From NCBI RefSeq assembly GCF_009996735.1, contig NZ_JAACYI010000003.1, forward strand, positions 124,001-188,000: DNA of 64,000 nt, read 5' to 3'. Below, piece by piece: positions 33,971-62,459 of the stretch. Both the position numbers and the translations under genes were made by a program. Position 1 is the stretch's first letter, and every line of letters starts with the position of its first letter. The notes below the pieces were generated by a model. That model did no database searches and had not been told where the DNA came from. It saw only the letters and a program-made list of their open reading frames with translations. Origin of the DNA: Cellulomonas sp. APG4 (lineage in GTDB: Bacteria > Actinomycetota > Actinomycetes > Actinomycetales > Cellulomonadaceae).

Positions 33971-33986
33971 GCCCCTGCGGCGGGGA

Positions 33987-34188: not shown

Positions 34189-34253
34189 TCTGGGGCGTCG
34201 GGTGCCATCGGCCCACAGAGCAGCTTCAAGCAGCAGTCGAGAGGAGAGAAGTG

Positions 34254-34556
34254 ATGAGTAGCTACGACCAGAAGAACGCCTTCGTCCTGAGAAGGGTCCT
34301 CAGGACAGAGCCCGTGTGCGGACGATGCACGGAGAGGGCAGGGGCGGACCACGACAAGTGCCTGAACCGCTCGCTCTCAGTTCTTGGAGTCGCAGAGCGG
34401 TTCACAACGGCGGACGTCGCCTGCGGGTGCCCGTGCCAGGTCCCGTCCGTGGCGGGGTCTTTCGTGCCGTCGCTCGCGGAGAACCGGCACCACGAGGCCC
34501 GGTGGGTCGAGTACGTGGCAGATCGTGAGTTCGTCGAGGAAGGGGCCGAGCGATGA
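34254..34556 (+). CDS. Small cysteine-rich protein
   Basis: A 100-aa protein; ATG 34254 follows AGGAGAG, with a GTG one codon earlier as an alternative. It contains VCGRCTERAGADHDKCLNRS and later VACGCPCQVPS, giving seven cysteines that could bind zinc. Its stop overlaps the next ATG. No family recognised. Confidence 0.55.
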   Translation: MSSYDQKNAFVLRRVLRTEPVCGRCTERAGADHDKCLNRSLSVLGVAERFTTADVACGCPCQVPSVAGSFVPSLAENRHHEARWVEYVADREFVEEGAER

Positions 34557-35134: not shown

Positions 35135-35136
35135 CG

Positions 35137-35158
35137 GCGCGAAGCCACCCCTTCGCGC
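35137..35158 (+). terminator. Terminator before the recombinase pair
   Basis: GCGCGAAG and CTTCGCGC form an 8-bp stem with a CCACCC loop, three bases after the small-terminase-like stop. Confidence 0.6.
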
Positions 35159-35224
35159 TGAACTTCTCGCTCGATCTTCTAGAGCCTGAGGTCATCAGGA
35201 GCCCAAGCACTACGGGAGGCCAGC

Positions 35225-36034: not shown

Positions 36035-36035
36035 G

Positions 36036-37259
36036 ATGGCCCGCCCCAAGGTCACCAAGACCGCCGTCAAGAACGCTCCCGGCATCCGCCGCATCACCCG
36101 GAGCTACGAGGACGGGCGCAAGGTCGAGAAGTACGAGGTTCGGGTCAAGGACGCGCTCGGCAAGGACGTGAGCCTCGGCATGTTCGCCACCCTGACCGAA
36201 GCCCGCGCGGCTCAGGTCAATGCGAAGAGCGCGCAGCAGAAGGGCAGCTTCGTCGCGCCGAGTGCCGGTAAGGCGACGTTCCTCAGCGTGGCCGAGGACT
36301 GGCTCGCGAGCCCGCAGGTCGTGCAGACCAAGCCGCGCACTCGTCGCGGGTACGAGCTGCTGGTGCACGGGCGACTCCGGCCTCTCCACGGCGTCAACGT
36401 CAACCGCCTGACGCACAAGGAGCTGAGCCGCTTCGTCGCGAGCCTCACCGCCGACGGCCTGGCACCCGCCACGGTGCGGCACGTCACGTTCGTCCTGCGG
36501 CGGGTACTCGACGAAGCCGTGAGCCAGCAGCTCGTCGCGTCGAACCCGATGGCGTCGGTCAGGCCGCCCAAGCTCCGCACCGTGCAGCCGTACGTCCTCA
36601 CCGAAGGCGACGTGGGTCGCCTCATCGACCACCTGCGCACGCACGACGACCAGCGCTGGTGGCTCCTCGTCATGTTCGCCGCCTACACCGGCTGCCGTGC
36701 CGGGGAGATCGCTGGCCTTCGAGTGAGGCACCTGAACCTCCTCAGCCGAACCGTGCGTATCGAGTCGGTCGTGCACGAGATGGGTGGGCGGCAGATCGCC
36801 GGCTCTCCGAAGACCGACGCGGGGCTCCGCACAATCAGCGGCCTGCCACGCGCGCTCTGCGACGGCCTGGGAGCGCACGTCGCCCAGCTTCGCCCGGACG
36901 ACTACGTGTTCGGCTGGCTCGACGCCGCTGGCACGTCGCACCCGTACCGCCACGCCAACTTCCTGCGGCGCGTGTTCACGCCTGCGGTCGAGGCCGTGGG
37001 CCTCCCGACCCACCGCACGAGGGGCGGCATCGGCCTCCACGACCTGCGGCACTTTCACGCCTCCCTCTGCATCGAGCGCGGCATGACCCCGGTACAGGTT
37101 GCCAAGCGCCTCGGGCACGTCAACGCGACGCTCGTCCTCCGCACCTACGCCCACGCCTGGCAGCAGGACGACAGCAAGTGGGGCGACGTGTTCGACGCGT
37201 CGTTGGCAGCCGCCCAGGAAGCTGCCTCGCCGTCGAACGTCGTGCCGCTGGCGCGGTGA
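36036..37259 (+). CDS. Tyrosine integrase of element 1
   Basis: A 407-aa site-specific recombinase. An N-terminal AP2-like arm-binding part (YEVRVKDALGKDVSLGMFAT) and SAM-like core-binding part (DWLASPQVVQTKPRTRRGYE) precede the catalytic domain. The catalytic residues are Arg in AAYTGCRAGEIAGLR, HDLRHFHAS (H-x-x-R), GHVNATLVLRTYAH with the nucleophilic Tyr. It is expected to have recombined the tRNA 3' end. The integrase is internal, with 4.3 kb of cargo between it and the tRNA-side att. Confidence 0.93.
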   Translation: MARPKVTKTAVKNAPGIRRITRSYEDGRKVEKYEVRVKDALGKDVSLGMFATLTEARAAQVNAKSAQQKGSFVAPSAGKATFLSVAEDWLASPQVVQTKPRTRRGYELLVHGRLRPLHGVNVNRLTHKELSRFVASLTADGLAPATVRHVTFVLRRVLDEAVSQQLVASNPMASVRPPKLRTVQPYVLTEGDVGRLIDHLRTHDDQRWWLLVMFAAYTGCRAGEIAGLRVRHLNLLSRTVRIESVVHEMGGRQIAGSPKTDAGLRTISGLPRALCDGLGAHVAQLRPDDYVFGWLDAAGTSHPYRHANFLRRVFTPAVEAVGLPTHRTRGGIGLHDLRHFHASLCIERGMTPVQVAKRLGHVNATLVLRTYAHAWQQDDSKWGDVFDASLAAAQEAASPSNVVPLAR

Positions 37260-37308
37260 TCTACAGCGCGCCTACCGAACGACGTGCGGCTGTGCTCGAC
37301 TCGTACTC

Positions 37309-37806
37309 GTGACCGTGCGCATCAACCGCAAGCAGATCATTGCCGCGTCCCTCGACGGCTTCGACCAGGCCCTAGAGAGGCACAAGCCAGCCCAGGGGCT
37401 TCGTCCGAGCTACATCTCCCTCGCCGAGTGCGTCTACTGGCTCGCGACGGTCGACGAGCTGCTCCGCCCGGAGGCTTGGTACGAGACCGAACGCTCGCGC
37501 CACTCTGATGGCGGGCTTCTACCTGGCCTGCGCTACGCACGGAACTTCGCGACGCACCAAGCGGTCGCCTTGGCGCAGGCTGGCCCCTCCTACCTCACGT
37601 TCCCCCTGTACGAGAGCGGCAGTCTCTATCGCACGTTCACCGAGTGGGTCGCCTTCGAAGACCTGCCCGAACCGACGAAGACCACGAAGTACACGCCCGA
37701 CCAGCAGGCCAGCTACAGGGAGCACCTGGGAGGTGAGCTCACCGTTCGTACTCTCGAACGCGCGCAGGAGTGGCTGAGAGCTGTCCGCGCGATTGCACTC
37801 GTGTAG
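37309..37806 (+). CDS. Cargo protein with RN-x3-H motif, HEPN-like candidate
   Basis: A 165-aa, mostly helical protein starting with GTG at 37309. LPGLRYARNFATHQAVAL contains R78-N79-x3-H83, the active-site pattern of HEPN ribonucleases. Upstream is the helix SLAECVYWLATVDELLR and downstream RTLERAQEWLRAVRAIAL. HEPN proteins are common toxins and effectors in anti-phage defence. The call rests on one short motif and fold guess; the protein may instead be unrelated. Less GC-biased codon use than core genes suggests recent transfer. Confidence 0.4.
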   Translation: MTVRINRKQIIAASLDGFDQALERHKPAQGLRPSYISLAECVYWLATVDELLRPEAWYETERSRHSDGGLLPGLRYARNFATHQAVALAQAGPSYLTFPLYESGSLYRTFTEWVAFEDLPEPTKTTKYTPDQQASYREHLGGELTVRTLERAQEWLRAVRAIALV

Positions 37807-37884
37807 CCGCCCGCCCTCGCCCGATCCCGACGCGCGGCCCGAAGCGCCCTGATCGCGTCGGAGAGCGCAGCTAGTCTCACTGAC

Positions 37885-38325
37885 GTGAAGGCCTGGGTCC
37901 GAAAGCCGACGACGCAGGCGGGTGCGCTCGTAGCGCTCGCCTTCGCCCTTACCCTCGCCATCGCTCTGCTCGGCGGAACCGCCGACACCCTGGTCCTGCT
38001 GCTGCTTACGCTCCTGGCTGGCGTGTTCCAGTTCTTCGGTGCGTCGAGGTTCCACAGCGCTGGTCGCGCAGACCCATCGCTCGCGAGGGCGTCCGTTCGC
38101 CGGCTCTTCAGCATGGCGGGGCGCGCATACGAGACGAGACTCTCCGTGGAGCAGTGCTACGAGACCGGCACGCCAGGCGATGCCAAGAAGCAACTCGGAG
38201 TGGTCAGCGCGCAGCTCAGCTTCATCGAGGAGGGCGCAGTGCAAGCCATCGAGGACTGGCGAGAATTTCACGACGAGGCTCTGGCGGATATAGAGGAGAA
38301 GCGCGATGACAGACACGAGGATTGA
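37885..38325 (+). CDS. Two-TM protein with cytoplasmic helical tail
   Basis: A 146-aa protein, GTG 37885. Two adjacent hydrophobic helices (AGALVALAFALTLAIALLGG; DTLVLLLLTLLAGVFQFFGA) occupy the first 55 residues, followed by about 90 residues of charged helices. The layout recalls small two-TM effectors of conflict systems such as SLATT-type proteins, but no direct match is claimed. It overlaps the next gene by 20 bp, so the two are coupled. Confidence 0.55.
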   Translation: MKAWVRKPTTQAGALVALAFALTLAIALLGGTADTLVLLLLTLLAGVFQFFGASRFHSAGRADPSLARASVRRLFSMAGRAYETRLSVEQCYETGTPGDAKKQLGVVSAQLSFIEEGAVQAIEDWREFHDEALADIEEKRDDRHED

Positions 38326-38758
38326 GGCGAAGGTCGCGCGGATCCTGACAGCGCGTGAACTGGTACTGAATCGTGGCTCCGACGCAGGCGTCGAGGTCGG
38401 TATGCGCTTCGCCATCCTCAACCGGCGCGGGAACGAGATCATCGACCCCGAGACGAAAGAGGTTCTCGGATCCGTAGAGCTACCCAAGACCTTCGTCAAG
38501 GTAATCTCCGTGGACGCCCGGCTCTGCGTCGCTCGAACCTTCCGCGAGTTCTATCACCCGGGCCAGAGAGGCGCTCTCGACTTCACGTCCTCCCTTTCCA
38601 CTCTGATGGCTTCGATCCCGGAAAGGACGGAGGTGGAGACCCTCAAGACCGACGAGACACGAATGAAGGACGAGATGGATGAGGCCGATTCCTTCGTCAA
38701 GACTGGGGATCCGGCCGTGCAGGTTATCGGCAACGAGTACGCCGGGATGCTCGGATAG
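38306..38758 (+). CDS. Partner of the two-TM protein, FlgT_C-like beta domain
   Basis: A 150-aa protein, ATG 38306. Residues 5-75 (EAKVARILTARELVLNRGSD; GVEVGMRFAIL) form an RGSxxGVxxGMxF pattern with alternating beta strands, similar to the FlgT C-terminal domain and related small barrels; the C-terminal half is acidic and helical. It overlaps the two-TM gene and is followed by a hairpin, so the pair is a self-contained unit. Function unknown. Confidence 0.5.
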   Translation: MTDTRIEAKVARILTARELVLNRGSDAGVEVGMRFAILNRRGNEIIDPETKEVLGSVELPKTFVKVISVDARLCVARTFREFYHPGQRGALDFTSSLSTLMASIPERTEVETLKTDETRMKDEMDEADSFVKTGDPAVQVIGNEYAGMLG

Positions 38759-38760
38759 CT

Positions 38761-38784
38761 CGGAGCGATTTTCCTAGATCGCCC
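38761..38784 (+). terminator. Hairpin after the two-TM operon
   Basis: GGAGCGAT pairs with ATCGCCCC (one A-C mismatch) around TTTCCTAG, directly after the stop at 38758. Confidence 0.4.
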
Positions 38785-38826
38785 CAGGCGACGCGGCTCC
38801 TCAACTTATTCGTAGCGGCTAGTCGA

Positions 38827-38848
38827 ACCTCGCGCGCGCGCGCGAGGT
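38827..38848. repeat. Alternating CG palindrome in a gene-free stretch
   Basis: A 22-bp perfect palindrome has seven CG dinucleotides in a row flanked by ACCT and AGGT. It lies in the 437-bp gap 38759-39195, which has no gene that I can support and is less GC-rich than its surroundings. The gap probably carries the promoter of the toxin-antitoxin operon; the palindrome could be an operator or a hairpin. Confidence 0.45.
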
Positions 38849-39195
38849 AGCGCACTCTGCATTGTGGCTGTATAGCCGACTACAACCTGGGTACGGCCCG
38901 AGGCAGAATCGAAATCGACGCCTCGGGTGCGGAGAAGGGTGCCCAGGACGCAGGAAAGGCGGTCGACGGGCCGGGCACGTCTCCTCAACCAACGGCCGAG
39001 GCGGTTCCGTCAGCCGGTCGAAGTGACATCGACCGCACCGTTCAGCTGCCGGGAAGGCGTCAGCCGCTCCGGCTACAGTCGAGCCGAGCCGACGGCCGAC
39101 GCCGCCCGGTCGGTAGGGTCGCCCTCAGTGCGCTCAGGTCCGCGCCCGAAGCTGCCGACACAGTTCGTAGAGCCCGATACCGAGAGGGTGGAGTC

Positions 39196-40311
39196 ATGGC
39201 AGTACGCGTCCCTGTGGTGCCTGCGACCCTTGCCTGGGCTCGACAAGCACTCCACGTCTCCCTCGATGACCTGGCACGAGCCGCCGGAACGAAGCCCGCT
39301 CAGGTGGCGGCTTGGGAAGCTGGCGACCAGCAGCCGACCATGAACCAGCTCCGCAGTACGGCGAAGAGACTCGACCGGACCGTGGCGTTCTTCTTCCTGC
39401 CCCCGCCGGAGCAAGTAGACATCCCAAGGGCTCCCGACTTTCGAGGACGAGACGAGGATGCGGAGCAGTCGCCCGGAGTCCTTCGCGAACTGAAGAGAGC
39501 CGAGGGGCGACGACAGAACTACCTCGACGTGGTCGGCCTCCAAGACGCACCATTCGCTCTACCGGAGTTCACGTGGAGCACAATCCCCCAGAGGACAGCC
39601 GAGCTCCGGCGCGCCCTTGCACCGCTCCTGCCAGAGGCCACCCACACTCCGGGCCTCAACGACTGGATCGCTGCTCTCGAGAGCTTCGGAGTGCTGGTCT
39701 TTCAGTCCAGCGGCGTCGCGCTGGCCGAATTCCGCGCCGTCTCGGTGTTTCACGAGCGCCTGCCCTTTGTCGTTCTGAATGGCGCGGACTCCCAGACGGC
39801 GCGCATTTTCTCGCTATTCCACGAGGTTGGCCACCTTGCGAATAGGACCGGCGGGGTGTGCCTCACCCTCGAAACGACCGAACAAGAGATTCTGTGCAAC
39901 CGGTTTAGCGCAGAGTTCTTGATGCCGCGCGACCGGGTGCTCTCCGTCGTTCGCAGGTCCCAGCCCGGAGACCTCGTCGGCGACGTCGAGAGACACTTCG
40001 GGGTGAGCAGCCTCGCGGCTGCCGTGCGACTGCGCGCGCTCGACCTCATCTCCGACGACGCGCTCGAAGCTGTCAGACGTGCATCTGACGCACGCTGGGC
40101 CGAAGAGCGACGGCGTCAGGCCGACAGGGAGGGCTTCGCCCCGCAGTGGCAGCTCGCGTACCGCAACCTCGGTCAGAAGTACATGCGCGGGGTCCTGCAC
40201 GCCCTCGAAGACTCGCGCATCGACCGGCTCGACGCGTCCTACCTCCTCGACGCGCGCGTACCTATGGTCGAGAAGCTGCTGAGCGAGATGGATCGGCGGG
40301 GTGAGCTGTGA
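39196..40311 (+). CDS. XRE-ImmA/IrrE metallopeptidase, antitoxin of a PIN pair
   Basis: A 371-aa protein, ATG 39196 after GGTGGAG. Residues 10-65 are an XRE helix-turn-helix (SLDDLARAAGTKPAQVAAWEAG). The ImmA/IrrE domain has HExxH at 209-213 (LFHEVGHLANR) and the third-ligand region EILCNRFSAEFLMPRD. Such proteins act as antitoxins or as proteases that cleave phage-type repressors. The overlap with a DUF4411 PIN gene (GTGA) is the standard arrangement of this toxin-antitoxin family. Confidence 0.85.
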   Translation: MAVRVPVVPATLAWARQALHVSLDDLARAAGTKPAQVAAWEAGDQQPTMNQLRSTAKRLDRTVAFFFLPPPEQVDIPRAPDFRGRDEDAEQSPGVLRELKRAEGRRQNYLDVVGLQDAPFALPEFTWSTIPQRTAELRRALAPLLPEATHTPGLNDWIAALESFGVLVFQSSGVALAEFRAVSVFHERLPFVVLNGADSQTARIFSLFHEVGHLANRTGGVCLTLETTEQEILCNRFSAEFLMPRDRVLSVVRRSQPGDLVGDVERHFGVSSLAAAVRLRALDLISDDALEAVRRASDARWAEERRRQADREGFAPQWQLAYRNLGQKYMRGVLHALEDSRIDRLDASYLLDARVPMVEKLLSEMDRRGEL

Positions 40312-49537: not shown

Positions 49538-49942
49538 CTAGAGTCTGTCAGCGATCCCCGCGAGAGTCACACGCGCCACGCCGTGCACCCTCAGGGTTTC
49601 CAGGATTGGGTCAAGCTTCCGCGCATTGACGGGCACGGTCTCCCCGCAGGTCTGGCACTCGAAGCGGTAGCGATGGCCGTAGTCCATGCCGGGCACTAGG
49701 TCTACTGGGGCGTGAGTTAGGCCCGAGCGTCCCAGCCTGCGGGCTTCGCCGAAGTAGGTCTGCAAGGCCTGCGAGCCCGCAGCGTCGATCCATGCCAAGA
49801 ATCCATGTCGGGTCGACCCTGGCTCGCCATTCGGCCGGGCACGATGCGCCAGCCGCGCGACCATCTCCGGCGGCGCGGCCACGTCCTTGCCTCGGTGGTG
49901 ACACTCGACCTCGAGCGTGAAGTCGACCACTGGATCGTTCAC
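49538..49942 (-). CDS. Hypothetical protein cotranscribed with the integrase
   Basis: A 134-aa protein with GTG 49942 overlapping the integrase stop (GTGA). VVDFTLEVECHHRGKDVAAP and later YRFECQTCGETVPVNARKLD (CxxC) suggest a small zinc-containing domain reminiscent of ribbon proteins in actinobacterial islands. No function recognised. Confidence 0.55.
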   Translation of the reverse strand: MNDPVVDFTLEVECHHRGKDVAAPPEMVARLAHRARPNGEPGSTRHGFLAWIDAAGSQALQTYFGEARRLGRSGLTHAPVDLVPGMDYGHRYRFECQTCGETVPVNARKLDPILETLRVHGVARVTLAGIADRL

Positions 49943-51063
49943 TGTCCACCCCCGACCATCGCGGATAGGGCTTCGGCGATCTGCGCGTCCCTGCCCTTCG
50001 CGGCGTGCTGGTAGCGCATCGCCGCCGACGGAGTCGAGTGGCCGAGCCGGGCCATGAGCTCGGCCAGCGTCGCGCCCGTGTGAGCGGCGAGGACGGCACC
50101 TGTGTGCCGCAGGACGTGCGGGGTGAGGTCTGGGCGCCCGATCGAGGCCCGAGCGCGGTTGAAGTGCCACAGGAAGGACGAGTGGGCCAGGTGGTCGCCG
50201 TCAGCGGCTGGGAACAGCAGGCCGTCCCTCCCCCAGGCGGCGTGCGTCGCGATGTGGTCGCGCAGCAGAGGCACCACGTGCGGCGGGATCGCGATGTCAC
50301 GGCGTCCGGCGTCGGACTTGGTTTCCCCCACCACGAGCGCCCCGTTGGTGCGCACGACCGCACGTCGCACCTTGAGCACGCCGTTCTTGAGGTCGACGTC
50401 CTTGCGTCGCAGCTCGGCCGCCTCACCGAACCGCAGCGCACACCACGCCATGAGGACGACCATCGCGCGCAGACGCTCGGGCATCTCCGCGGCCAGCGCG
50501 GTCAGATCCTCGAGGGATGCTGGCTCGATCTTCTTCGCCCGCTTGGTCGCGCCGGCGCCCTTGACCCGGCACGGGCTCTTGACGACCTTGTCGCGGCGCT
50601 CGGCGTCACGGTAGATCGTCCGCAGCAGGGCGTAGGCGTGGGCACGGTAGGTGGGCCCGGTCTGCTCGTGCAGCGCGTCGTGCCAGTCCTCGACGTCGTC
50701 GAGCGTGACAGCGGTCAGCGGTCGCGTGCCGAACGTCGGGAGGATGAAGCGCTCGAGGAGACGCTCGTAGTGCTCGAGGGTGCGGGGCTTGAGCGGCTTC
50801 TCTGCGTGCTGGCGCCTGCGCAACCACCCGGCCGCGTACTCCCCGAACGTCGTGACCGCCTTGGCGCGGCGGCGCTCGGCAGGCGCGACCCACGTGCCCT
50901 CAGAGATCATGCGCCGCTCGAGAGCCAGCCACGCCTCTCCGTCGAGCTGCGTGTCGAAGGTCGAGGTGGCCGTGTGCCGGGCGAGGTCCGGGCCGATGTA
51001 GGACGCCTGCCATCGCTTGCTCGGCAGCCTGCGGAGCTTGCCGAATCCTCGTCGCGCTGCCAC
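49939..51063 (-). CDS. Tyrosine integrase of element 2
   Basis: A 374-aa recombinase. GTG 51063 has AGAGGTGG upstream; the open frame further upstream runs through the tRNA remnant (giving the tell-tale ATGLEPVT peptide) and is not coding. The N-terminal arm-binding region is basic; FGEYAAGWLRRRQHAEKPLK begins the core-binding domain. Catalytic residues are Arg in WCALRFGEAAELRR, Lys in GETKSDAGRRDI, HVLRHTGAV (H-x-x-R), GHSTPSAAMRYQHA with Tyr. It lies next to the att copy, the usual satellite arrangement. Confidence 0.93.
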   Translation of the reverse strand: MAARRGFGKLRRLPSKRWQASYIGPDLARHTATSTFDTQLDGEAWLALERRMISEGTWVAPAERRRAKAVTTFGEYAAGWLRRRQHAEKPLKPRTLEHYERLLERFILPTFGTRPLTAVTLDDVEDWHDALHEQTGPTYRAHAYALLRTIYRDAERRDKVVKSPCRVKGAGATKRAKKIEPASLEDLTALAAEMPERLRAMVVLMAWCALRFGEAAELRRKDVDLKNGVLKVRRAVVRTNGALVVGETKSDAGRRDIAIPPHVVPLLRDHIATHAAWGRDGLLFPAADGDHLAHSSFLWHFNRARASIGRPDLTPHVLRHTGAVLAAHTGATLAELMARLGHSTPSAAMRYQHAAKGRDAQIAEALSAMVGGGQ

Positions 51064-51211
51064 CCGTGACCACCTCTCGTGCACCCTGCGTGCACTAACA
51101 GAGTACCCCCGTGTCCTCTTGTGTCCACGTCCGACACTCGTTACTGTGAGCCGTATTCGCAGGTGAGAGGCCCGTATCCGCAGGTCGGTCCAGTCACGAC
51201 GATGGGCCGGT

Positions 51212-51241
51212 GTTACTGGTTCGAGTCCAGTCGCGGGAGCA
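51212..51241 (+). repeat. att direct repeat, displaced tRNA-Asn 3' end
   Basis: Thirty bases identical to 42408-42437. Only the T-arm and acceptor strand are present, so this is not a tRNA gene. Confidence 0.92.
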
Positions 51242-51245
51242 CCCG

Positions 51246-51270
51246 AGGGCCCCACCCGTGGTGGGGCCCT
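51246..51270 (+). terminator. Original tRNA-Asn terminator, displaced by element 2
   Basis: AGGGCCCCAC and GTGGGGCCCT form a perfect 10-bp stem with loop CCGTG, followed by TCGTC. It sits five bases after the displaced tRNA end, where the host terminator would have been before integration. Confidence 0.75.
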
Positions 51271-54042: not shown

Positions 54043-55581
54043 TCAGGTCGGGGCGTCGCGCGAGAGCGGGTCGAGCGCGCTCGAGAACCGCCGCGGCTTC
54101 AGTCCCCCGAACCGCGCGCTGTCCGCGAGGACGTCGAGCCCCACAGGTCTCCCGAGGAGGCGTTCGAGCGCCTGGCCCGCCTGCCGGGCGGCGGTGAGGC
54201 CTGCAGGTGTACCGGGCGAGGCGGGCAGCGCCGTGAGGTGGACGGCGCCAGCCGCGTCCTGGTGCAGCTCCCAGGCCGCGAGCCCGTGCCCCTGGAGCAC
54301 CTGCGTCGCGTCGACCGAGGGACGCCAGCTCCCGTCGGCGTGCTGATAGCGGACCGGTGCCCGTCCCTCGAGGCCGTGCACCTCGACCGTGCCGTCGGCC
54401 CGACGCCGCAGCGACCCGTGGTCGCCGGTCCGGTAGCGCAGCAGCGGCAGGTAGGGGTTCTCGTCGGTGGTCACGGCGATCTCCCCGCGCACGCCGTCGG
54501 GGCAGGGCACGCCGTCGGCGTCGAGCACCTCGACCCACACCCGGCGCGGCAGGACCACGTGCGGACCGTCGTCCCAGCGCGCCGCCACCGGACCCGTCTC
54601 GCGCAGCCCGTACAGGTCCAGCAGCGGGACGTCCCACGTCTCCCCGACCAGGGCCCGGACCGCGGGGGTCAGGTGCGCGGCACCGCTGACGAGGGCGAGG
54701 GGGTGCAGCACGAGCCCTGCTCGCACCAGCTCGACCAGGCGGACCAGCGGCAGCGGCGAGGTGCTGACCACCTGGGGGTCCCAGGCGGCGAGGAAGCGCT
54801 CACGGTCACCCGGAGCGTTCCACGCGGCGTCGTCCAGGTTGACCCGGGCCATCACCGGTGCCGCAACCTCGTCCGGTCGCGGGAACGCCGTCATCGCCGA
54901 GGCGTAGGTGAAGGCGGCCCGCTGGTCCACGAGGTTGACCAGGCCGAGGCGGTCGGGCTCGGCGTGCCACGCGACGCCCGCGTCGCCCATCAGGCGGTGC
55001 AGCAGCAGCAGGTCGGCCGCGACCGTCACGGGGTGCAGCGGGATGCGCAGCGCCGCGCCGGTGGACCCCGAGCTCGTTCCCTCGAGCACGCGGTCGAGAG
55101 CGACGTCGAGCGGGACCAGGTCGGCGACGCCGCCGCGAAGGTCGTCCCGGTCGAGCGTGGGGAGCGCCGTGAGCGGGGTCGTGCCCGACGACCGTCCCTC
55201 ACGTGCGCGGCGGCGGTAGCGCGGCACCTGCTCGTGGGCGCGCGCGACGAGCGCGTCCACCCACGCCGGGGGTGCGCCAGCGTCGGGGCCGGGGGCCGCC
55301 GCGTGTCGACGGGGTGCGCCGCGCAGGGCCGCGAGATCGTCCGACGTGAGCCGGTCCCCGGTGCGGTGCACCCAGGTGGGGGCCGACGGGTCCGACGTCA
55401 CGGCGGTCAGCACGCGGGCTCCGGCGGTGTCGAGGGTCGGCCACCGGGCGACATCGTCGAGGGCGAGCGCGGACATCGGCTGGTACTCGTCGAGCACGTG
55501 CTCGACGGGCGCGCGCTCGGGTGGCGCCTGGTCGGCCGGCGGCTGCTCGCTCGCCCCGCGGGCGTGGGTGGGCTCGGTCAT
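54043..55581 (-). CDS. Adenylate-forming ligase, phenylacetate-CoA-ligase-like
   Basis: A 512-aa protein; ATG 55581 shares a base with the upstream stop. About 100 residues of N-terminal extension precede an ANL-type core: the phosphate loop VLEGTSSGSTGAALRIPLHP, adenine-site LLDLYGLRETGPVAARW, LLRYRTGDHGSLRR with the ribose-binding Asp, and a C-terminal domain ending FGGLKPRRFSSAL. Such enzymes adenylate a carboxylate and often pass it to CoA; the substrate cannot be read. It ends a five-gene coupled operon with MoxR and vWA proteins, an unusual setting that argues against simple aromatic catabolism. Confidence 0.72.
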   Translation of the reverse strand: MTEPTHARGASEQPPADQAPPERAPVEHVLDEYQPMSALALDDVARWPTLDTAGARVLTAVTSDPSAPTWVHRTGDRLTSDDLAALRGAPRRHAAAPGPDAGAPPAWVDALVARAHEQVPRYRRRAREGRSSGTTPLTALPTLDRDDLRGGVADLVPLDVALDRVLEGTSSGSTGAALRIPLHPVTVAADLLLLHRLMGDAGVAWHAEPDRLGLVNLVDQRAAFTYASAMTAFPRPDEVAAPVMARVNLDDAAWNAPGDRERFLAAWDPQVVSTSPLPLVRLVELVRAGLVLHPLALVSGAAHLTPAVRALVGETWDVPLLDLYGLRETGPVAARWDDGPHVVLPRRVWVEVLDADGVPCPDGVRGEIAVTTDENPYLPLLRYRTGDHGSLRRRADGTVEVHGLEGRAPVRYQHADGSWRPSVDATQVLQGHGLAAWELHQDAAGAVHLTALPASPGTPAGLTAARQAGQALERLLGRPVGLDVLADSARFGGLKPRRFSSALDPLSRDAPT

Positions 55582-56189
55582 CAGTAGTTGGCGTACTGGG
55601 CCGCCGCCTCCTTCGCCTTCTTCTCGGCGAGGGCGCGCGCGAGCTCCTCGGCGCGACGCACCTCGAGAGCCATCGCACGTGAGGCGGCCTCACGGTGCTC
55701 GGTGCTCACCGCGAGCCACCTGTCGGCCGCGTGCTCGGCGGACTCGCCCGCGGGCAGGAGCCCACCCGCGGCGAGCGCCGCACGCGCAGCCTCCTCGCGA
55801 CCCGACGGCTCGTGCACCCACGTGCGCGGGTCGCGCACCGGCGCGAGACCGTGCGCGAGCCTCTCGATCACGCGCAGGGCCCAGCGCGCGAGGTCACCCG
55901 TCTCCTGCACCGCCTCCCGGACGCCCGCGTGGACGTGCAGCGCCGGGTCCAGCACGAGCCAGCACGCGACGCCGGCGCCCGCGCGCACCACGCGCGGGGC
56001 GTCGACCCCCAGCGACGTGTCGAGGCGCGTGAGCGCCCGTGCGTCGAGGACGGTGCCGTCGAGCACGACGAGCACGTCGCAGACGAGTGCCGGGATGTCC
56101 GCCGCGCGGTCGAGCAGGTCGGGCGGGGTCCGCGCGAGGCGTTGCCGCAGGCTGGCCAGCGCCGGGCCCGGGCGGAGCTCCTCAGCCAC
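55581..56189 (-). CDS. Unknown protein of the MoxR/vWA/ligase operon (202 aa)
   Basis: A 202-aa protein; GTG 56189 overlaps the vWA stop by eight bases (GTGGCTGA). The first half alternates strands and helices (DIPALVCDVLVVLDGTVLDA; VVRAGAGVACWLVLDPALHV), the second is helical and ends in a charged EELARALAEKKAKEAAAQYA coiled tail. No motif or family recognised. Coupling to both neighbours suggests a stoichiometric partner of the vWA protein or of the ligase. Confidence 0.65.
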   Translation of the reverse strand: MAEELRPGPALASLRQRLARTPPDLLDRAADIPALVCDVLVVLDGTVLDARALTRLDTSLGVDAPRVVRAGAGVACWLVLDPALHVHAGVREAVQETGDLARWALRVIERLAHGLAPVRDPRTWVHEPSGREEAARAALAAGGLLPAGESAEHAADRWLAVSTEHREAASRAMALEVRRAEELARALAEKKAKEAAAQYANY

Positions 56190-57993
56190 GGGCCGCCTCC
56201 CCGGCGGACCGGGCCCACAGGCGGCGCGCGAAGGCGCGCGCGAACCGGACGAGGTCCTCGTCGCCGTCGACCAGGTGCACGTCGTAACCGAGGGCGACCG
56301 CCGCGATGCGGTCGGCGTACGCAGCCGCGCCCCGCAGCACGAGGGTGCCGCCCCCGCCGGCCGCGTCGACCGCACGCGCCGCGATCCCGGTGCTCGGGTC
56401 CCCGCGCCGGTCCTTGTCGGCGTCCTCGGCCCGACGGTAGAGGCTGAACGGGTCGACGACGTCCTCGAACATCGAGATCACCCCGGCGTCGGAGATCACG
56501 GCGACGTGCGTCGCGCGCTCCCCCGTCCGGAGCGCCGGCCGCGGCGTCAGGTGGGTGCGTTCGAGCAGCGGGAGCGGGAAGGACGTGCCACCACCGAAGT
56601 GCGCGACGACGGCGGCGAGGACGGCGTCGGCATCACGGGTGAACCCGTCGGTCCCCGCCACCTGCCCCCGACCGCTCCAGGTGGTGGCCTGCACGCGGGC
56701 GCCGGCCCGCAGGGCGGACAGCGCGAGGACGGCGCCGGCGAGCGCGATCGGCGCACGCGCGACCTTCGGGTCGGGCATCGAGCCGGACGAGTCGAGGTAC
56801 AGGTCCAGGTCGACCGGACGCGACTCGGGGCGGCTCGGGTCCTCGCGGTGCACGTCCCGGCGCACCGTCGTCAGGCCGGGCACGACGACGGGTGACGCGC
56901 TCACCGTGGCCGTCCAGTCGACGTCGGCCAGGTCGTCGCCGAGCTCCCACGCCTCGAGGCCGCCGAGCAGCTCCTCACGCGGCTGAGGCACCGGGACCGG
57001 CGGGAAGGGGACCAGGTGCGGGGTCGCGTGCTCGCGGTACCAGGCGGCCGCGACCTGCGCCGAGTCGACCGTGAGCCCGAGCGCCCGCACGGCCGCGAGG
57101 GCGTCGGCCGGCGCGAAGCCCTGGCCGTGCCCCGAGCCGGCCCCACCCCCGCCCGGGTCGGGACCGAAGGCTTCCCCGCCCGTGCCGTCGGCGTCCCCCG
57201 CGGCCCCGTCGGACGTGGCCGCGTCGCCGACGACGGCGGGATCGAGGGCCGGGTGCACCACCGGCTCGCCGAGGGACGGGTCCCCCGCGAGGCCCGCCGG
57301 GACCTGGTCGCCGCCCTCCCGGTGGCGGCAGGTCGCCAGGCGGCGGTCGGGCTCCCAGCTCTCGAGCTCCTCGGCGAGCGTGGTGCGCACGAGGGCCGCG
57401 AAGCCGCCCGCCCCCGCGACGGGGTCGCGCGCGTACACCCGCACCAGCCGCGCGCACAGGTGAGCCGCGTCCTCGGGCACCGCGCCGTCGGGGTTGGTGA
57501 GCGTCCCACGCGACGTCTCCCAGAGCAGCTCGTAGGTGCGGGCCACCAGCTGGAACAACCGGTCGTCCGGTCGGGGGCGCCCGAGCGCGGCGTACAGCTC
57601 GAGCACGGGCACGTCCGCGGCGCGCTGGAGCCTGTCGTTGATCAGCAGGTCGGCCCACAGGTTCGCGACCGTGCCCACGAGCCGGTCGGCATCGACGAGG
57701 CCCGTGCGCACGCGGGCGGCGGTGCGGGCGGCGGTGAGCAGGTCGCCAGGTGCGAGCACGTGGTGGCCCACCTCGTGGGCGAGCGCCGCGAGCGCGTGCC
57801 CCTCGATCCGCCGGGCACGCACCTGCGCGAGGTCGATGTGCACCTCGACGTCGGTGCACGAGAACCAGGCGAACGAGCCGGCGTCCGGCACCGGTTCCTC
57901 GTGCAGGGTCGGTCGGTGCATGCGGGTGGGCCGCCCCCACGCCGCGAGGGCGCGGGGCCACACCTCGAGCCACTGCTCGGCGAGGGCGTTCAT
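56182..57993 (-). CDS. HExxH metallopeptidase-like domain fused to vWA domain
   Basis: A 603-aa protein with ATG 57993 overlapping the preceding stop (ATGA). The N-terminal part has ALAALAHEVGHHVLAPGD, with HExxH at 73-77, as in the predicted metallopeptidases of the DUF2201 type. A Gly/Asp-rich linker (about 270-310) leads to a C-terminal vWA domain with an intact MIDAS: VDLDLYLDSSGSMPD (DxSxS), FGGGTSFPLP (Thr), HVAVISDAGVISM (Asp). vWA proteins of this kind work with MoxR ATPases, the next gene but one. An intact protease site and MIDAS argue for an active enzyme. Confidence 0.8.
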   Translation of the reverse strand: MNALAEQWLEVWPRALAAWGRPTRMHRPTLHEEPVPDAGSFAWFSCTDVEVHIDLAQVRARRIEGHALAALAHEVGHHVLAPGDLLTAARTAARVRTGLVDADRLVGTVANLWADLLINDRLQRAADVPVLELYAALGRPRPDDRLFQLVARTYELLWETSRGTLTNPDGAVPEDAAHLCARLVRVYARDPVAGAGGFAALVRTTLAEELESWEPDRRLATCRHREGGDQVPAGLAGDPSLGEPVVHPALDPAVVGDAATSDGAAGDADGTGGEAFGPDPGGGGAGSGHGQGFAPADALAAVRALGLTVDSAQVAAAWYREHATPHLVPFPPVPVPQPREELLGGLEAWELGDDLADVDWTATVSASPVVVPGLTTVRRDVHREDPSRPESRPVDLDLYLDSSGSMPDPKVARAPIALAGAVLALSALRAGARVQATTWSGRGQVAGTDGFTRDADAVLAAVVAHFGGGTSFPLPLLERTHLTPRPALRTGERATHVAVISDAGVISMFEDVVDPFSLYRRAEDADKDRRGDPSTGIAARAVDAAGGGGTLVLRGAAAYADRIAAVALGYDVHLVDGDEDLVRFARAFARRLWARSAGEAARG

Positions 57994-59069
57994 GCCGCGA
58001 CCCGTCGCGGAAGCCGCACGACGTCGACGCAGTACGAGTGGGCGCGGCTCACGAGGGCCACGGGGCCCGGCCACGCCGGGGCGTCGACGGCGACGAGCCC
58101 CGTGACCTCGTCGGTCCAGGGGACGACGCCCACGTGGGGCGCGCCGTGCGCGGGCGGGCGGGGCCGCCCGGTGACGCCGTCGGCGGCCGCGTCACCGAAC
58201 CGCGTGATCGCACTTCCGTGGACGTCGGCCACGACCAGCCACGCGACGTCGTCGGCCTCGACGAGCCACCCCGGTCCACCCTCGGCGGGGCCGACCCAGC
58301 CCAGCACGACCGGCCGCCTCAGCCACGGGCCGCCGAGGCCACGGAACCCCCCGTGGCGTGCGAGCACCCCCGGAGCGGTGCGGCTCCCGGGCCACCACCA
58401 ACGGTCGGCCCGGTGCGGCGTGAGCACGGCCTCCCCGAGACGGGACGGATCGGCGGCGAGCTCGGCGGGCAGGTCGAGCGCGGCGACCGCGACCGCCCGG
58501 GGCAGCTCGTCGACGGCGGCCAGCGCGGCGTCACGGAAGCGCGCGAGGCCGCTGCGCCAGGCGGCCACGACGACGACCGACCGCACCCGAGCGGCGAGGT
58601 CGGCACCGGCCGTCACGCCCTGCTCGGCCGTGGCCGCCGCTGCGACGCGCCTCAGCCAGGCGTCCAGGTCTCCCTGGCGCGCGACCGTCGGTGCCGCCGC
58701 GACCATCGCCCCGACCACGGGGCGTGGGTCGACCGCGAGCCACGGGACCGCCGTCGCCGCGACTGCGAGGGCCCGGTGCTCGGGTCCGTGCGCGCCCGCG
58801 CGCCCCTGGGCGCACAGGGCGGCCGCGGACCCGACGAGCGCCTCGAGCGTCGCGTCGAACCGGTCCTCCGGCAGTGCGACCTCGAGCCCCCGCACGAGCC
58901 CGGCCACCTCGGCCGTGGTGCGCAGCAGGTCCTCGGGTGCCGCGCCCTGGGCGGCAGCGCGACGCAGCACCTCGTTGAGCGCGGCCCGACGCCGTCGCAC
59001 CGCCGCCCCCGCGGGCGAGGCGGGGTCGAGCAGCGGCACCTGCACCTGCACCTGCGGGTCCGACGTCAT
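57990..59069 (-). CDS. Unknown protein of the MoxR/vWA/ligase operon (359 aa)
   Basis: A 359-aa protein between the MoxR and vWA genes, ATGA-coupled to both. The first 190 residues are alanine-rich helices (LNEVLRRAAAQGAAPEDLLR; DAWLRRVAAAATAEQGVTAG) and the last 150 are tryptophan-rich beta sequence (RPVVLGWVGPAEGGPGWLVE; AYSYC-like HSYCVDVVRLP). No catalytic motif recognised. In ternary MoxR/vWA systems the middle gene often encodes the effector or substrate adaptor. Confidence 0.65.
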   Translation of the reverse strand: MTSDPQVQVQVPLLDPASPAGAAVRRRRAALNEVLRRAAAQGAAPEDLLRTTAEVAGLVRGLEVALPEDRFDATLEALVGSAAALCAQGRAGAHGPEHRALAVAATAVPWLAVDPRPVVGAMVAAAPTVARQGDLDAWLRRVAAAATAEQGVTAGADLAARVRSVVVVAAWRSGLARFRDAALAAVDELPRAVAVAALDLPAELAADPSRLGEAVLTPHRADRWWWPGSRTAPGVLARHGGFRGLGGPWLRRPVVLGWVGPAEGGPGWLVEADDVAWLVVADVHGSAITRFGDAAADGVTGRPRPPAHGAPHVGVVPWTDEVTGLVAVDAPAWPGPVALVSRAHSYCVDVVRLPRRVAA

Positions 59070-60652
59070 CCGCCGCTCCAGCGCAACCAGGCCAGGTAGC
59101 TCGAGTAGCGCTGGTGGGCGTACTTGAGCGCGAGCGCGTCGTCGTAGACGCTCCCGTAGAGCTTGATCGCGTCCTGCCAGAGGGCGAGGAGCTCCTCGAT
59201 CCGGGCGGTACGGCGCAGCACCTCCTGCTCGGTGAGGCCGTGCGTCCCGCGATCGAGCTCGGCGAGGATCTCGCCCACCGGGTCCTGCGAGTCGAGGCCC
59301 TCGGCGTCGTACTGGCGGCACGTCGTGTCGAAGAGGTCGCGGATCCACGACACCCGGTCGCTGCGCAAGGCCTCCCGGTCCGCCTGCTCGAAGCTCGGCG
59401 CCTGCAGGTCGGGCTGGAGCTTGTCGTGCAGCACGAAGGGCAGCACCGCCCGCAGGTCCTCGAGAGTCACCTCTGCGTTGCCCCGGAAGTAGGCCATCGC
59501 CTTGGCGTAGAGGATGAGCGACTGCAGGGCACGGACGGACAGGCCGTTGAGCGTCTGTGCGCCCACATCGGCGAGGCGGTCCTTGCCCGTGTCGGCCGCG
59601 GTCAGCAGGTGCGGGTCCACCCCGGCCAGCCGGGCCGTGTCCTTGGTCCGGTACTCGAGCTGCCAGGCCGCGCGCTCGAGCACCTCGAGCTGGGAGCTGA
59701 AGTACTCGAGCCGACGGCGCACCGGGGCCGGCAGCGCGACCGCGAGCACCTCCGCGTGCACACGGTCGTGCTCCTCGGCCGAGAAGACGATCTCGGGCGG
59801 GACGTTCTCCTCGGGCCGCAGCCCGCGCTCGGCACGCGTGACGAGGTCGCCGAGGAACCGGCTGTTGAAGGCGAGCGCCTTCACGACGACGTCGATCCGG
59901 TCACGCAGGGCGTCGACCACCTGGAACGTGCCGCCGCCGGCGTCGTCGTTGGCCGTGAGGTACCAGGCCGAGGCGCCCGTCTCGTAGATCTGGTCGAACA
60001 CCTCGACGTACCCGTCGGCGAGCACCGTGAGCAGCGCCGACTGCGTCTTGGTCGGGATCCGGTTGTACTCGTCGACGATCTTGACCCGCATGCCGAGCCA
60101 GGTGCGCCACGCGACGTCGATGTCCGAGAGCCGCTCGGCGGCGACGAGGTCGCGCGGCAGCGGGGTGCCGAAGAGGTCGCTCACCGTCAGCTGCGGGTGG
60201 CCGTGCTGCATGGCCCGACGCACGTCCCGCACCGGGTAGCCGGCGAGCACACCCATGAGAACCGCACTGGCCGTCTTGCCCCGGCCTGGGCCCCCGACGA
60301 GCAGGCAGCGGCCTCGCACAGCGAACGTGAGCAGCGGGAGCAGGACGAAGCTCGAGTACGACTGGTCGGTGGGCAGCTCGACGACCGCACGGGTGTCCCC
60401 GAGCCGGTAGGCGGTGCGGGCGACCGACGGGTCGGAGAACTCGACGTCGTAGTGGGGGCTGATGATCGCGTGGTTGACCATCCAGAAGTACGCCTGGCGC
60501 AGCTTCTCGTCGAGGGCGGGGCCGGCACCGGAGCCGGCGTCCGCGCTCGCGGCGGGACCCGCGGCGAACAGCCTGTCCACGTCGAGCTGCGCTCCGGGCC
60601 GTGCGGCGGGGTGGCTCGACGGCCGGGTCGGTGCGCGCGACACCTGGTCCAT
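59066..60652 (-). CDS. MoxR-like AAA+ ATPase
   Basis: A protein of about 528 aa. Walker A is CLLVGGPGRGKTASAVLMG (near residues 117-130), Walker B VKIVDEYNRIPTKTQ, sensor 1 SAWYLTANDDAGGGTFQ, arginine finger ALRDRIDVVV: the MoxR order. The C-terminal 150 residues are helical. MoxR ATPases remodel or activate targets together with vWA proteins. ATG 60652 is used; a GTG at 60700 adds 16 proline-rich residues and could be a leaderless start. It is the first of five overlapping genes. Confidence 0.85.
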   Translation of the reverse strand: MDQVSRAPTRPSSHPAARPGAQLDVDRLFAAGPAASADAGSGAGPALDEKLRQAYFWMVNHAIISPHYDVEFSDPSVARTAYRLGDTRAVVELPTDQSYSSFVLLPLLTFAVRGRCLLVGGPGRGKTASAVLMGVLAGYPVRDVRRAMQHGHPQLTVSDLFGTPLPRDLVAAERLSDIDVAWRTWLGMRVKIVDEYNRIPTKTQSALLTVLADGYVEVFDQIYETGASAWYLTANDDAGGGTFQVVDALRDRIDVVVKALAFNSRFLGDLVTRAERGLRPEENVPPEIVFSAEEHDRVHAEVLAVALPAPVRRRLEYFSSQLEVLERAAWQLEYRTKDTARLAGVDPHLLTAADTGKDRLADVGAQTLNGLSVRALQSLILYAKAMAYFRGNAEVTLEDLRAVLPFVLHDKLQPDLQAPSFEQADREALRSDRVSWIRDLFDTTCRQYDAEGLDSQDPVGEILAELDRGTHGLTEQEVLRRTARIEELLALWQDAIKLYGSVYDDALALKYAHQRYSSYLAWLRWSGG

Positions 60653-60762
60653 CTCGCGGGTGCCCGCGGGCGCGGGCGTGGGCGGGTCGGGCTGCGGCAC
60701 GGGGCGAGTCTGGCACGGCGGGTCGTCGTCGCGACGTTGCGGACCACGCTGCGAGCCGGGGT

Positions 60763-61833
60763 TCAGTGCACCTCGTGCACCTCGTGCACCTCGGCGCCAC
60801 GCTGCGGCAGCGGCTCGGACATGTGCCGGGGCGTGGCCACGAGCGGCTCGACCAGCGCGAGGGCCGCCTCGAGCCGCGCGGCGCGCGAGCCGCGCAGCTC
60901 GTGCCACGGGGCCCCGCCGGCCGCCGCCTGGGTCGCGAGGACCTCGCGGAACCTCTGCTGCATCGCGTGACGCACGTGCTCGCCGTCGCGCAGCCCGTCC
61001 TGGACGAAGTCGATCTCGTCACCCGTGAGGAGGTAGAGGTCGGGGACGCGCCGGGCCGCGAGCGCCTCGACCGACGGCGACCGGGTGCCCACGTAGCGCT
61101 CGTGCCAGACGGTGGTCGCGAGCACGTCCGTGTCGCACACGACGAGCGGCAGCGGGGTGGTCGCCGCCGCGGCGTCCTCCCGTCGCGCCTGCTCGCGCGC
61201 GACGAGGTCGAACTCGGCGCTGTGCCAGGGCGCTGCGAGGCCGCCGGGACGGTCGACGCTCCACTCGCGGCCGAACTCGAGCACCGGTGCGATCCCGTGG
61301 TGGCGCGCGAGGTCGGTGGCGAGGGTCGTGGTCCCCGTCGACTCGGCCCCCAGCACCACGACCCGCCGGGCGAACCACGCGCGGACGGCCGCGGGCAGCG
61401 CCCACCAGTGGCCCGCCGGGTCGGCCCGCACCGCCGAGCCGGAGACCGGGACGGCGACGCGGCCGGGGTCCACCTGCACCCAGCGGGCGTCGAGGCGGCG
61501 CGCGAGCTCGCGGCCGTAGGCGTCCGACGTCAGCACCGCGTCGACCGGGGCGTCCAGCAGCGAGCGCATGAGCGCGACGTGCAGGTCCCACAGGTGCGGG
61601 TCGGCGTAGTCGACGGGCGTGTCGTCGACGGCCGTCACGACCCGTGCGCCGGGCACCTCGCTGCGCAGCCAGTCCGCCCGCGTGCCGACGGGTACGGACT
61701 CGGCCGTGGACCCGAGCACCTGGACGGTCACGCGTGCGCAGCGCGACAAGGCCGTGCGGACGAGGTTCAGGTGCCCCGCGTGCAACGGGTAGAACTTCCC
61801 GATCACGAGGCCGTGGGCGTGGCGGGCGGTCAT
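60763..61833 (-). CDS. nadR: NadR-like nucleotidyltransferase/ribosylnicotinamide kinase
   Basis: A 356-aa bifunctional protein; ATG 61833 overlaps the pnuC stop (ATGA). The N-terminal adenylyltransferase has LVIGKFYPLHAGHLNLV (GxFxPxHxGH) and VPVSGSAVRADP; the kinase part has VVVLGAESTGTTTLATDLA (P-loop) and LVVCDTDVLATTVW. It would convert nicotinamide riboside to NMN and NAD. The C-terminus repeats HEV. With PnuC it forms a salvage pair directly upstream of the MoxR operon. Confidence 0.88.
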   Translation of the reverse strand: MTARHAHGLVIGKFYPLHAGHLNLVRTALSRCARVTVQVLGSTAESVPVGTRADWLRSEVPGARVVTAVDDTPVDYADPHLWDLHVALMRSLLDAPVDAVLTSDAYGRELARRLDARWVQVDPGRVAVPVSGSAVRADPAGHWWALPAAVRAWFARRVVVLGAESTGTTTLATDLARHHGIAPVLEFGREWSVDRPGGLAAPWHSAEFDLVAREQARREDAAAATTPLPLVVCDTDVLATTVWHERYVGTRSPSVEALAARRVPDLYLLTGDEIDFVQDGLRDGEHVRHAMQQRFREVLATQAAAGGAPWHELRGSRAARLEAALALVEPLVATPRHMSEPLPQRGAEVHEVHEVH

Positions 61834-62459
61834 GCGGGCCCGACGCCGGCGTCCGCGTGGGCCGACGGCGGCGTACCGGCGGGGGTCGCGTCCGCCGCGG
61901 CACCCACGGCGGCGGCCCGTCGCCACGTCCGCAGGCCGTGCACGCACAACCCGATGAAGAGGAGGTAGAGGGCCGCGGTGACGTAGAGCCCCAGGCCGAC
62001 GTACAGGCCGACCAGGAGCACGTCGGTGAGGATCCACACGTACCACGTGCCGATCCACTTCCGGTTCAGCATCAGCTGGGCCACCAGGCTGAGCCCGGTG
62101 GTCAGGCCGTCCCAGAACGGGACGGTCGAGTCGGTCCACGTCCCGAGCACCCAGGTCAGGACGGCGGTCGCGGTGAGGGCGGCCACGACGGCCACGGGCC
62201 AGGCCCAGCGCGGCGCCGTGCGGACCGTCAGCGGCCCGCGGTCCTCTCCGCCGCGCACCCACCACCACCAGCCGAGCACCCCGAGCACGAGGTACACCAC
62301 CTGGAGCGCGGCGCCCGCGTACAGGCCGCTGCCGACGAACAGCACGGCGAAGACGACGTTGTTGGCGATGCCGACGGGGAAGGTCCACACGTTCTCGCGC
62401 GCTGCGAGCCACACGCACACCGCACCGGTGACGAATCCGAGGATCTCGAGGGGGTCCAC
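61830..62459 (-). CDS. pnuC: PnuC-family nicotinamide riboside transporter
   Basis: A 209-aa membrane protein starting with GTG at 62459. It has about seven hydrophobic helices (EILGFVTGAVCVWLAARENV; WTFPVGIANNVVFAVLFVGS) and the PnuC signature LGWWWWVRGG plus LMLNRKWIGTWYVWI. PnuC imports nicotinamide riboside, and NadR traps it by phosphorylation, which fits the coupled order. Confidence 0.9.
   Translation of the reverse strand: MDPLEILGFVTGAVCVWLAARENVWTFPVGIANNVVFAVLFVGSGLYAGAALQVVYLVLGVLGWWWWVRGGEDRGPLTVRTAPRWAWPVAVVAALTATAVLTWVLGTWTDSTVPFWDGLTTGLSLVAQLMLNRKWIGTWYVWILTDVLLVGLYVGLGLYVTAALYLLFIGLCVHGLRTWRRAAAVGAAADATPAGTPPSAHADAGVGPA

Follow-up and report, generated by a model that had tools for sequence, protein, structure and literature searches.

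A MoxR-vWA gene unit with an adenylating ligase as a regular partner in actinobacteria and deltaproteobacteria

Introduction

The NorQ/NorD, CbbQ/CbbO, RavA/ViaA and CoxD/CoxE systems have in common a MoxR ATPase gene beside a gene for a von Willebrand factor A (vWA) protein with an intact metal-ion-dependent adhesion site (MIDAS). Such MoxR-vWA machines are widespread, and few of their clients are known. Here we describe a gene unit of this kind in a 64,000-nt stretch of Cellulomonas sp. APG4 (NZ_JAACYI010000003.1, forward-strand positions 124,001 to 188,000), hereafter the window. The unit encodes a MoxR-clade AAA+ protein with a P-loop and an adjoining vWA protein with the MIDAS residues. 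Unlike in the four systems above, the vWA partner has an N-terminal HExxH...D zincin-like domain, and the unit regularly includes two uncharacterised proteins, U359 and U202, together with an adenylating ligase. It is a new variant of the MoxR-vWA systems, present in two phyla, with the ligase as regular partner and nicotinamide adenine dinucleotide (NAD) or radical SAM genes as further partners. The genetic tie to a ligase makes the chemistry of such a machine approachable by enzyme assay, and the tie to NAD salvage genes connects a MoxR machine to that pathway.

The MoxR-vWA ternary conflict systems (VMAP, iSTAND, FtsH, beta-propeller; PMC7159879) also combine MoxR and vWA proteins with further proteins. 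In the main text of that paper their hosts likewise include actinobacteria and deltaproteobacteria, and a radical SAM gene, though no ligase, is described next to one FtsH subtype; HEXXH, AMP-ligase, acyl-CoA and phenylacetate are terms that do not occur there. In contrast to the ternary systems as that text presents them, no VMAP, STAND or FtsH component was recognised here and the ligase takes the place of the variable effectors. An FtsH-type ATPase is absent among the seven genes of the unit; U359, for which we have a weak model and a comparison by Pfam, may be remotely linked to the ternary third component. Judged by title and the start of the abstract, no open-licence paper was found in which a MoxR-vWA pair is linked with an ANL ligase or with pnuC-nadR.

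Results

Seven genes between dgt and dnaG

All seven genes lie on the reverse strand of the window. Five overlap in series: a MoxR-type AAA+ ATPase gene (59066..60700, start at GTG 60700 or ATG 60652), the open reading frame of U359 (57990..59069), the gene for a 603-aa protein that joins an HExxH metallopeptidase-like domain to a vWA domain with a MIDAS (56182..57993), the gene for U202 (55581..56189) and that for a 512-aa PaaK-like ANL adenylating ligase (54043..55581). The successive junction offsets are -4, -4, -8 and -1 nt. A preliminary description of this DNA had placed these five overlapping genes, two of them for uncharacterised proteins, between dgt and dnaG (labels carried over from its annotation); our coordinates and overlaps of 4, 4, 8 and 1 nt agree with it, and both uncharacterised proteins are members of the unit. 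It left uncounted two genes inside the same span (54043-62459). The first gene is pnuC (61830..62459), encoding a 209-aa nicotinamide riboside transporter (PF04973, E 3e-49; TIGR01528, 87 bits, above the cut-off), and it overlaps by ATGA with a nadR-like gene (60763..61833, start at 61833) for a 356-aa nicotinamide mononucleotide adenylyltransferase/ribosylnicotinamide kinase. The latter scored 177 bits with TIGR01526, short of the curated cut-off of 341, and E 1e-24 with PF13521, in a library scan of the protein begun at 61869. The end of nadR is separated from MoxR by 62 nt, the end of dgt from pnuC by 28 nt, and the end of the ligase gene from dnaG by 77 nt.

Gene order is conserved in two phyla

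A scan of genome contigs yielded two further loci, in Actinotalea solisilvae (71%, L011) and in a deltaproteobacterial metagenome-assembled genome (28%, L012), the latter with MoxR, a 317-aa protein, HExxH-vWA, a U202 homologue, an extra 209-aa gene and the ligase in consecutive order. With the vWA protein as query, 4 of 119 genomes of the order were positive. A MoxR profile (E ≤ 1e-50) matched 15 of 396 genomes in the order, from 9 of 109 genera, 2 of 396 across the host phylum and 31 of 377 in the phylum of the deltaproteobacterial genome. The vWA, order and host-phylum counts include the Cellulomonas genome itself, and the MoxR and ligase searches scored the top 3-4 candidates per genome. 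We compared 17 actinobacterial loci (the window, L011, L013-L015, L019 and L093-L103) and 31 loci of the deltaproteobacterial phylum (L012 and L049-L078).

MoxR, vWA, U202 and ligase genes stand in fixed order in 17/17 actinobacterial loci, 16 of which also have a U359 family member (L102 has a 0.9-kb gap instead). Assuming the in-frame start closest to the preceding stop, MoxR and U359 overlap by 4 nt in 12 of these 16 loci, and U359 and vWA do so in all 16. In the deltaproteobacterial phylum a vWA gene lies near MoxR in 26 of 31 loci; of the remaining five, four are cut off by a contig end, and in L049 no vWA gene occurs in the 9.5 kb downstream of MoxR, while vWA and ligase genes lie on another contig of the same genome (L113). 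Over all loci having both MoxR and vWA, U359 family members sit between the two in 42 of 43, being undetected in L102. The same order in all 17 actinobacterial loci with different flanks, and its recurrence across phyla, is more than chance clustering. This survey had been proposed in the preliminary description, and it shows that the unit recurs well beyond dgt and dnaG.

The position between dgt and dnaG was correctly described, but the preliminary description missed that this site is incidental. The flanks differ among loci. In two relatives of the same family (L121, L123) dgt is followed by dnaG at most ~0.1 kb away, and in four more (L122 and L124-L126) the two are 0.7-7.8 kb apart, the DNA between them having no match to genes of the unit; the genome of L126 carries the unit at another site. 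The insertion site is therefore incidental, and the unit is mobile and has moved between genomes. When the MoxR tree is rooted at its midpoint, the actinobacterial sequences fall into a single clade nested in the deltaproteobacterial diversity; given this rooting, the pattern suggests that the unit was transferred towards actinobacteria. Pairwise tree distances for MoxR, vWA, U202 and ligase are correlated at 0.89-0.94 over 28 loci, in agreement with linked descent of the four. We also considered a plasmid or viral origin and found no support for it: there was no MoxR match at E ≤ 1e-30 among 72,556 plasmid records, and a two-pattern scan of viral contigs confirmed no MoxR relative, the phage collection not having been searched.

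The ligase accompanies MoxR

Profiles for four families were built after truncated, odd or redundant rows had been dropped, from 26 of the 29 ligases found (A3), 37 of 44 U359 rows (A4), 38 of 41 U202 rows (A5) and 39 of 44 vWA rows (A6). Among the 377 genomes of the deltaproteobacterial phylum, 25 have MoxR and the ligase, 6 MoxR only, 1 the ligase only and 345 neither. These counts use a ligase cut-off of E ≤ 1e-60 that was picked after the results were known; the preset 1e-50 gives 25/6/3/343, adding G619 and G728 as ligase-positive genomes negative for MoxR. Fisher's test on the first table gives p 2.6e-32, a value that is overstated since the genomes are related. Profile A3 contains 11 of the 25 co-occurring genomes, as well as the four genomes of the order that carry the unit, and these match by construction; the other 14 of the 25 are not part of it. 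In the single ligase-positive, MoxR-negative genome at the stricter cut-off (G692), a U359-family gene is directly followed by vWA, U202, ligase and nadR genes, and the contig ends inside this first gene. Weaker ligase-like matches (3e-48 to 6e-41) were seen in G841, G845, G871 and G873. In the 119-genome order sample the four genomes with the unit scored 1e-167 to 4e-184, compared with 1.9e-63 for the best match in a genome without it (G033).

The preliminary description had proposed the ligase as a fixed member, a view that would have suffered had the ligase been independent of MoxR in most relatives. We find the reverse: it is present in 17/17 actinobacterial loci, and 25 of 26 ligase-positive genomes of the deltaproteobacterial phylum are MoxR-positive, yet 6 of 31 MoxR-positive genomes lack it. 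The co-occurrence table and the fixed gene order rule out chance clustering of the ligase with the MoxR genes. Within the deltaproteobacterial phylum the ligase lies in the MoxR locus stretch in 12 of 31 loci, compared with a genome-wide match at E ≤ 1e-60 in 25 of 31; some genomes, discussed below, have a separate ligase, while in others it adjoins vWA or U202, or its position relative to MoxR is hidden by a contig end.

A profile of the 26 ligases found phenylacetate-CoA ligase (PaaK) structures (best E 3e-28), and the motifs SSGSTG, YGLRETG, RYRTGD and GR are mostly retained among them, with a C-terminal K in 22 of the 26. The window ligase scored 5e-7 with Pfam AMP-binding (29.4 bits, cut-off 29.9), and its best NCBIfam model was the DVU_1553 family (E 2e-18, 66.7 bits against a cut-off of 300); it falls far under the curated cut-offs of the PaaK models. 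Thus it shares ANL motifs and profile similarity with the PaaK and DVU_1553-family AMP-dependent CoA ligases, and differs from them in being encoded with a chaperone machine.

Conserved residues in the MoxR and HExxH-vWA proteins

The window MoxR matched AAA_lid_2 above the Pfam cut-off (E 2e-8) and AAA_3 just below it (1e-5, 25.6 bits, cut-off 27); in the genome-wide search it scored 28.9 bits with AAA_3, the weakest of the five AAA_3 matches of its own genome. It is 51% identical to the L012 homologue. The P-loop GGPGxGKTA and the motifs GTPLP and DEYNRIPT are unchanged in six aligned sequences, and the MoxR profile found a single PDB sequence at E ≤ 0.001 (2r44, 3e-7).

In the vWA protein, H73, E74, G76, H77 and D115 (window numbering) are unchanged in 39 members, as are the MIDAS residues D401, S403, S405 and D502. 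The HExxH-vWA fusion with intact MIDAS reported earlier for the window is thus borne out, and its motifs are invariant in the relatives. The conservation of D115 suggests that it may be the third zinc ligand of the HExxH domain. Among the 39 members Peptidase_M48 was matched in 13 (best 2e-5) and VWA_2 in 5 (best 3e-4); the window protein matches neither and has no Pfam match up to E 1. In G566 (L055 9157-13003, L120 1158-5004) vWA and U202 are separated by genes for a protein kinase and for a 736-aa protein that has no Pfam match, and G511 (L059 15652-18092) has another, divergent pair of vWA and U202 genes downstream of the ligase.

U359 and U202

The profile searches and structure predictions suggested in the preliminary description leave U359 and U202 without a trusted sequence or fold relative. 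The window U359 has no Pfam match up to E 1, and its family of 37 members has nothing in Pfam better than E 0.003 and no convincing PDB relative; the window U202 has one Pfam match, at 0.03, and its 38 members have nothing better than E 0.009 and no PDB relative. Relatives are 13-58% (U359) and 12-67% (U202) identical to the window proteins. The U202 residues D38, E132, E133 and R136 are unchanged in 38 members. With three sequences in each alignment, AlphaFold2 (AF2) gave U359 a mean predicted local distance difference test (pLDDT) score of 64, with block means of 71-90 across residues 21-210; the model has a helical N-terminal domain and a beta-rich, poorly modelled C-terminal part. U202 (mean pLDDT 58, a weak model) is predicted to be all-helical with a long C-terminal helix. 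Foldseek searches with these weak models were uninformative (best E 0.71 and 0.97).

NAD salvage genes and radical SAM partners

In 14 of 17 actinobacterial loci (not L019, L096 or L097) pnuC-nadR lies upstream on the same strand, separated from MoxR by 0.4-3.4 kb in four of the 14 (L098-L101). The nadR and MoxR genes overlap by 4 nt in six loci (L013, L014, L015, L093, L094 and L062), and in G692 nadR overlaps the ligase gene by 4 nt. The two genes belong to the unit in actinobacteria. PnuC (TIGR01528) was found in 56 of the 119 order genomes. Seven score above 80 bits, a line chosen after the results were known, including all four genomes with the unit, where pnuC adjoins it; in the other three, pnuC-nadR stands alone (L104) or ahead of a third gene (L105 and L106), which in L105 encodes a NUDIX + NrtR_WHD protein. 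These are the same two genes as in pnuC-nadR(-nrtR) NAD salvage clusters, whereas nadR of the unit is next to MoxR or the ligase and in several loci overlaps it by 4 nt. Among the 31 MoxR-positive genomes of the deltaproteobacterial phylum, PnuC occurs in 10 and adjoins the unit in three: upstream in G790, with nadR overlapping MoxR, and at the far end on the opposite strand in G611 and G511.

The kinase P-loop of the window NadR (60763-61833, -) reads GAESTGTTTL, without the usual K. All 14 actinobacterial NadR proteins of the unit and three from outside it have GTTT or GSTT, and K is kept in the deltaproteobacterial L052, L059, L062 and L107. We rejected this lysine loss as a feature of the unit, as the three actinobacterial NadR proteins from outside it also show it.

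In the deltaproteobacterial phylum (the 31 genomes plus G692, within the stretches read) a radical SAM gene adjoins the ligase in 7/32 genomes (G681, G646, G824, G716, G561, G541 and G571), and in G716 and G561 the radical SAM domain and the ligase share one open frame. Four more have one elsewhere in the cluster: G786 and G654 at a distance of one gene from U202, G711 next to vWA and G599 some genes off; the clusters of G711 and G599 also carry a glycosyltransferase and a PIG-L-type gene. The proteins scanned matched PF04055 or radical SAM models, none above an NCBIfam cut-off. Within the same stretches, nadR and a cluster radical SAM gene occur together in no genome. A similar uncharacterised gene, compared by eye over N-terminal stretches, follows the radical SAM gene in L077 (3426-4463) and L076 (2851-3912). 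In L012, 4.4 kb upstream of MoxR and on its strand, lies a gene (787-3090) for a radical SAM protein resembling tetraether lipid synthase Tes (E 4e-104; 349 bits, cut-off 450); we did not count it as a partner.

Discussion

One functional unit is supported by the fixed gene order, the overlapping frames, the way in which ligase presence tracks that of MoxR, the conservation of catalytic and metal-site residues and the two sorts of additional partner, and we regard it as almost certain that the ligase is a partner in it. What the unit does is a more tentative matter. By analogy with NorQ/NorD and with peptide capture by MIDAS domains, it could be a MoxR/vWA remodelling machine devoted to an adenylation-dependent modification or maturation, the reading that we favour, though we would not claim even chances for it. 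As has been proposed for other MoxR-vWA pairs, MoxR would assemble into an AAA+ ring and exert a pull on the vWA protein; the latter would grip a client via its MIDAS site, and the HExxH domain, with zinc, would cleave or hold this client. The ANL ligase might then adenylate a carboxyl group, carried either by a small acid or by a protein or peptide client, and transfer the acyl group; U359 and U202 would be candidate adaptors linking machine, ligase and client, and NadR or radical SAM enzymes would provide or tailor the group involved. The client is probably encoded outside the unit. The suggestion in the preliminary description that the ATPase could drive the vWA-protease onto targets modified or primed by the ligase is speculative, and it took in neither pnuC-nadR nor the radical SAM partners nor the occurrence in two phyla. 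A narrower version of our reading is doubtful: a previously undescribed class of AAA+ machine, in which the MoxR/vWA-metallopeptidase would hand over a protein or peptide client to the PaaK-type ligase for modification, with nicotinamide-nucleotide and radical-SAM chemistry able to replace each other as the third step.

Several observations weigh against this picture. No client gene is conserved within the unit. Among 618 other genes in 62 loci (called genes of 45 aa or longer), seven clusters span at least four loci, and none is convincing as a precursor or client: three are flanks common to members of one genus, one results from the double reading of two genomes, and three look by eye like general families (ABC ATPases, sensor/regulator proteins and kinases). 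Six of the 31 MoxR-positive genomes, forming one clade with the six lowest MoxR scores, have no ligase match at E ≤ 1e-60, indicating that the machine can exist without this ligase, and the ligase is separate from MoxR in at least five genomes (L109, L110, L112, L116 and L119). The C-terminal lysine of ANL enzymes has a catalytic role; K stands in this column in 22 of the 26 aligned ligases, the exceptions being L015, L067, L099 and L100, in the last of which the residue is shifted by one. Peptidase activity of the HExxH domain is putative, resting on the motif, and the AF2 models of U359 and U202 are too weak to place either protein. Finally, within the stretches read nadR was found in 4/32 genomes of the deltaproteobacterial phylum, so NAD is not essential to the core.

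Alternatively, the unit could be a biological-conflict system, a cousin of the MoxR-vWA ternary systems that senses invasion and releases or makes an effector, with the ligase, radical SAM or NAD enzymes making or controlling a toxic or protective small molecule. The patchy distribution (2/396, 15/396 and 31/377), the divergence of U359 and U202, the different insertion sites and the tree pattern suggestive of transfer between phyla would all fit defence, as would the enrichment of ternary systems in multicellular bacteria and the radical SAM neighbour of one FtsH subtype, both described in the main text of PMC7159879. However, a PADLOC scan of the seven genes gave nothing meaningful (the best hit, E 0.017, covers 22 residues of MoxR), the plasmid records and the viral-contig scan, within the limits given above, contained no MoxR relative, and the constant ligase of the actinobacterial loci leaves no variable effector slot. 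We consider defence rather unlikely.

A further alternative is a NorQ/NorD- or CoxD/CoxE-like chaperone that inserts a cofactor into a metalloenzyme, for which the ligase and NadR or radical SAM enzymes would make or load a special cofactor. Passages in PMC13036017 and PMC7159879 assign this role to known MoxR-vWA pairs. In G650, G717 and G800 (L116, L109 and L110) the separated ligase lies ~3-8 kb from molybdenum-hydroxylase genes, and molybdenum hydroxylase, the client type of CoxD/CoxE, is a possible client of a MoxR-vWA machine; the DVU_1553 match of the ligase also agrees with this explanation. MoCoBD domains are present in L116 and L109; L116 also has Fer2_2, and L109 and L110 carry homologues of it; the genes lie at 3036-5866 in L116 and 61-1047 in L109. 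Yet BLAST with two L116 hydroxylase proteins found them in these three of 65 loci only, all in one MoxR subclade, and a helicase and other genes intervene. The three genomes are close relatives on the MoxR tree, and the neighbourhood may have been inherited. No oxidoreductase was recognised next to MoxR loci, where most neighbours were not scanned. We know of no HExxH domain in NorD or CoxE. Cofactor insertion is unlikely in our view; the hydroxylase genes near three separated ligases nevertheless lower our confidence in the remodelling-machine mechanism slightly. That the ligase is an ordinary catabolic phenylacetate-CoA-type enzyme placed in the operon by chance is highly improbable: PaaK ligases are its closest solved relatives, but the 25/6/1/345 co-occurrence, the order fixed in 17/17 actinobacterial loci, the scores far under PaaK curated cut-offs and the lack of another phenylacetate-pathway gene among the seven all speak against it.

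A tyrosine integrase gene (49939-51255, -; phrog_1, E 2e-63) lies a short distance downstream of dnaG in the window. Beyond it, at 32108-40308, are primase-like (32108), serine-recombinase-like (35225) and regulator/metalloprotease-like (39196) genes; together these genes, recognised in a scan of eight proteins, probably represent an integrated mobile element near the unit.

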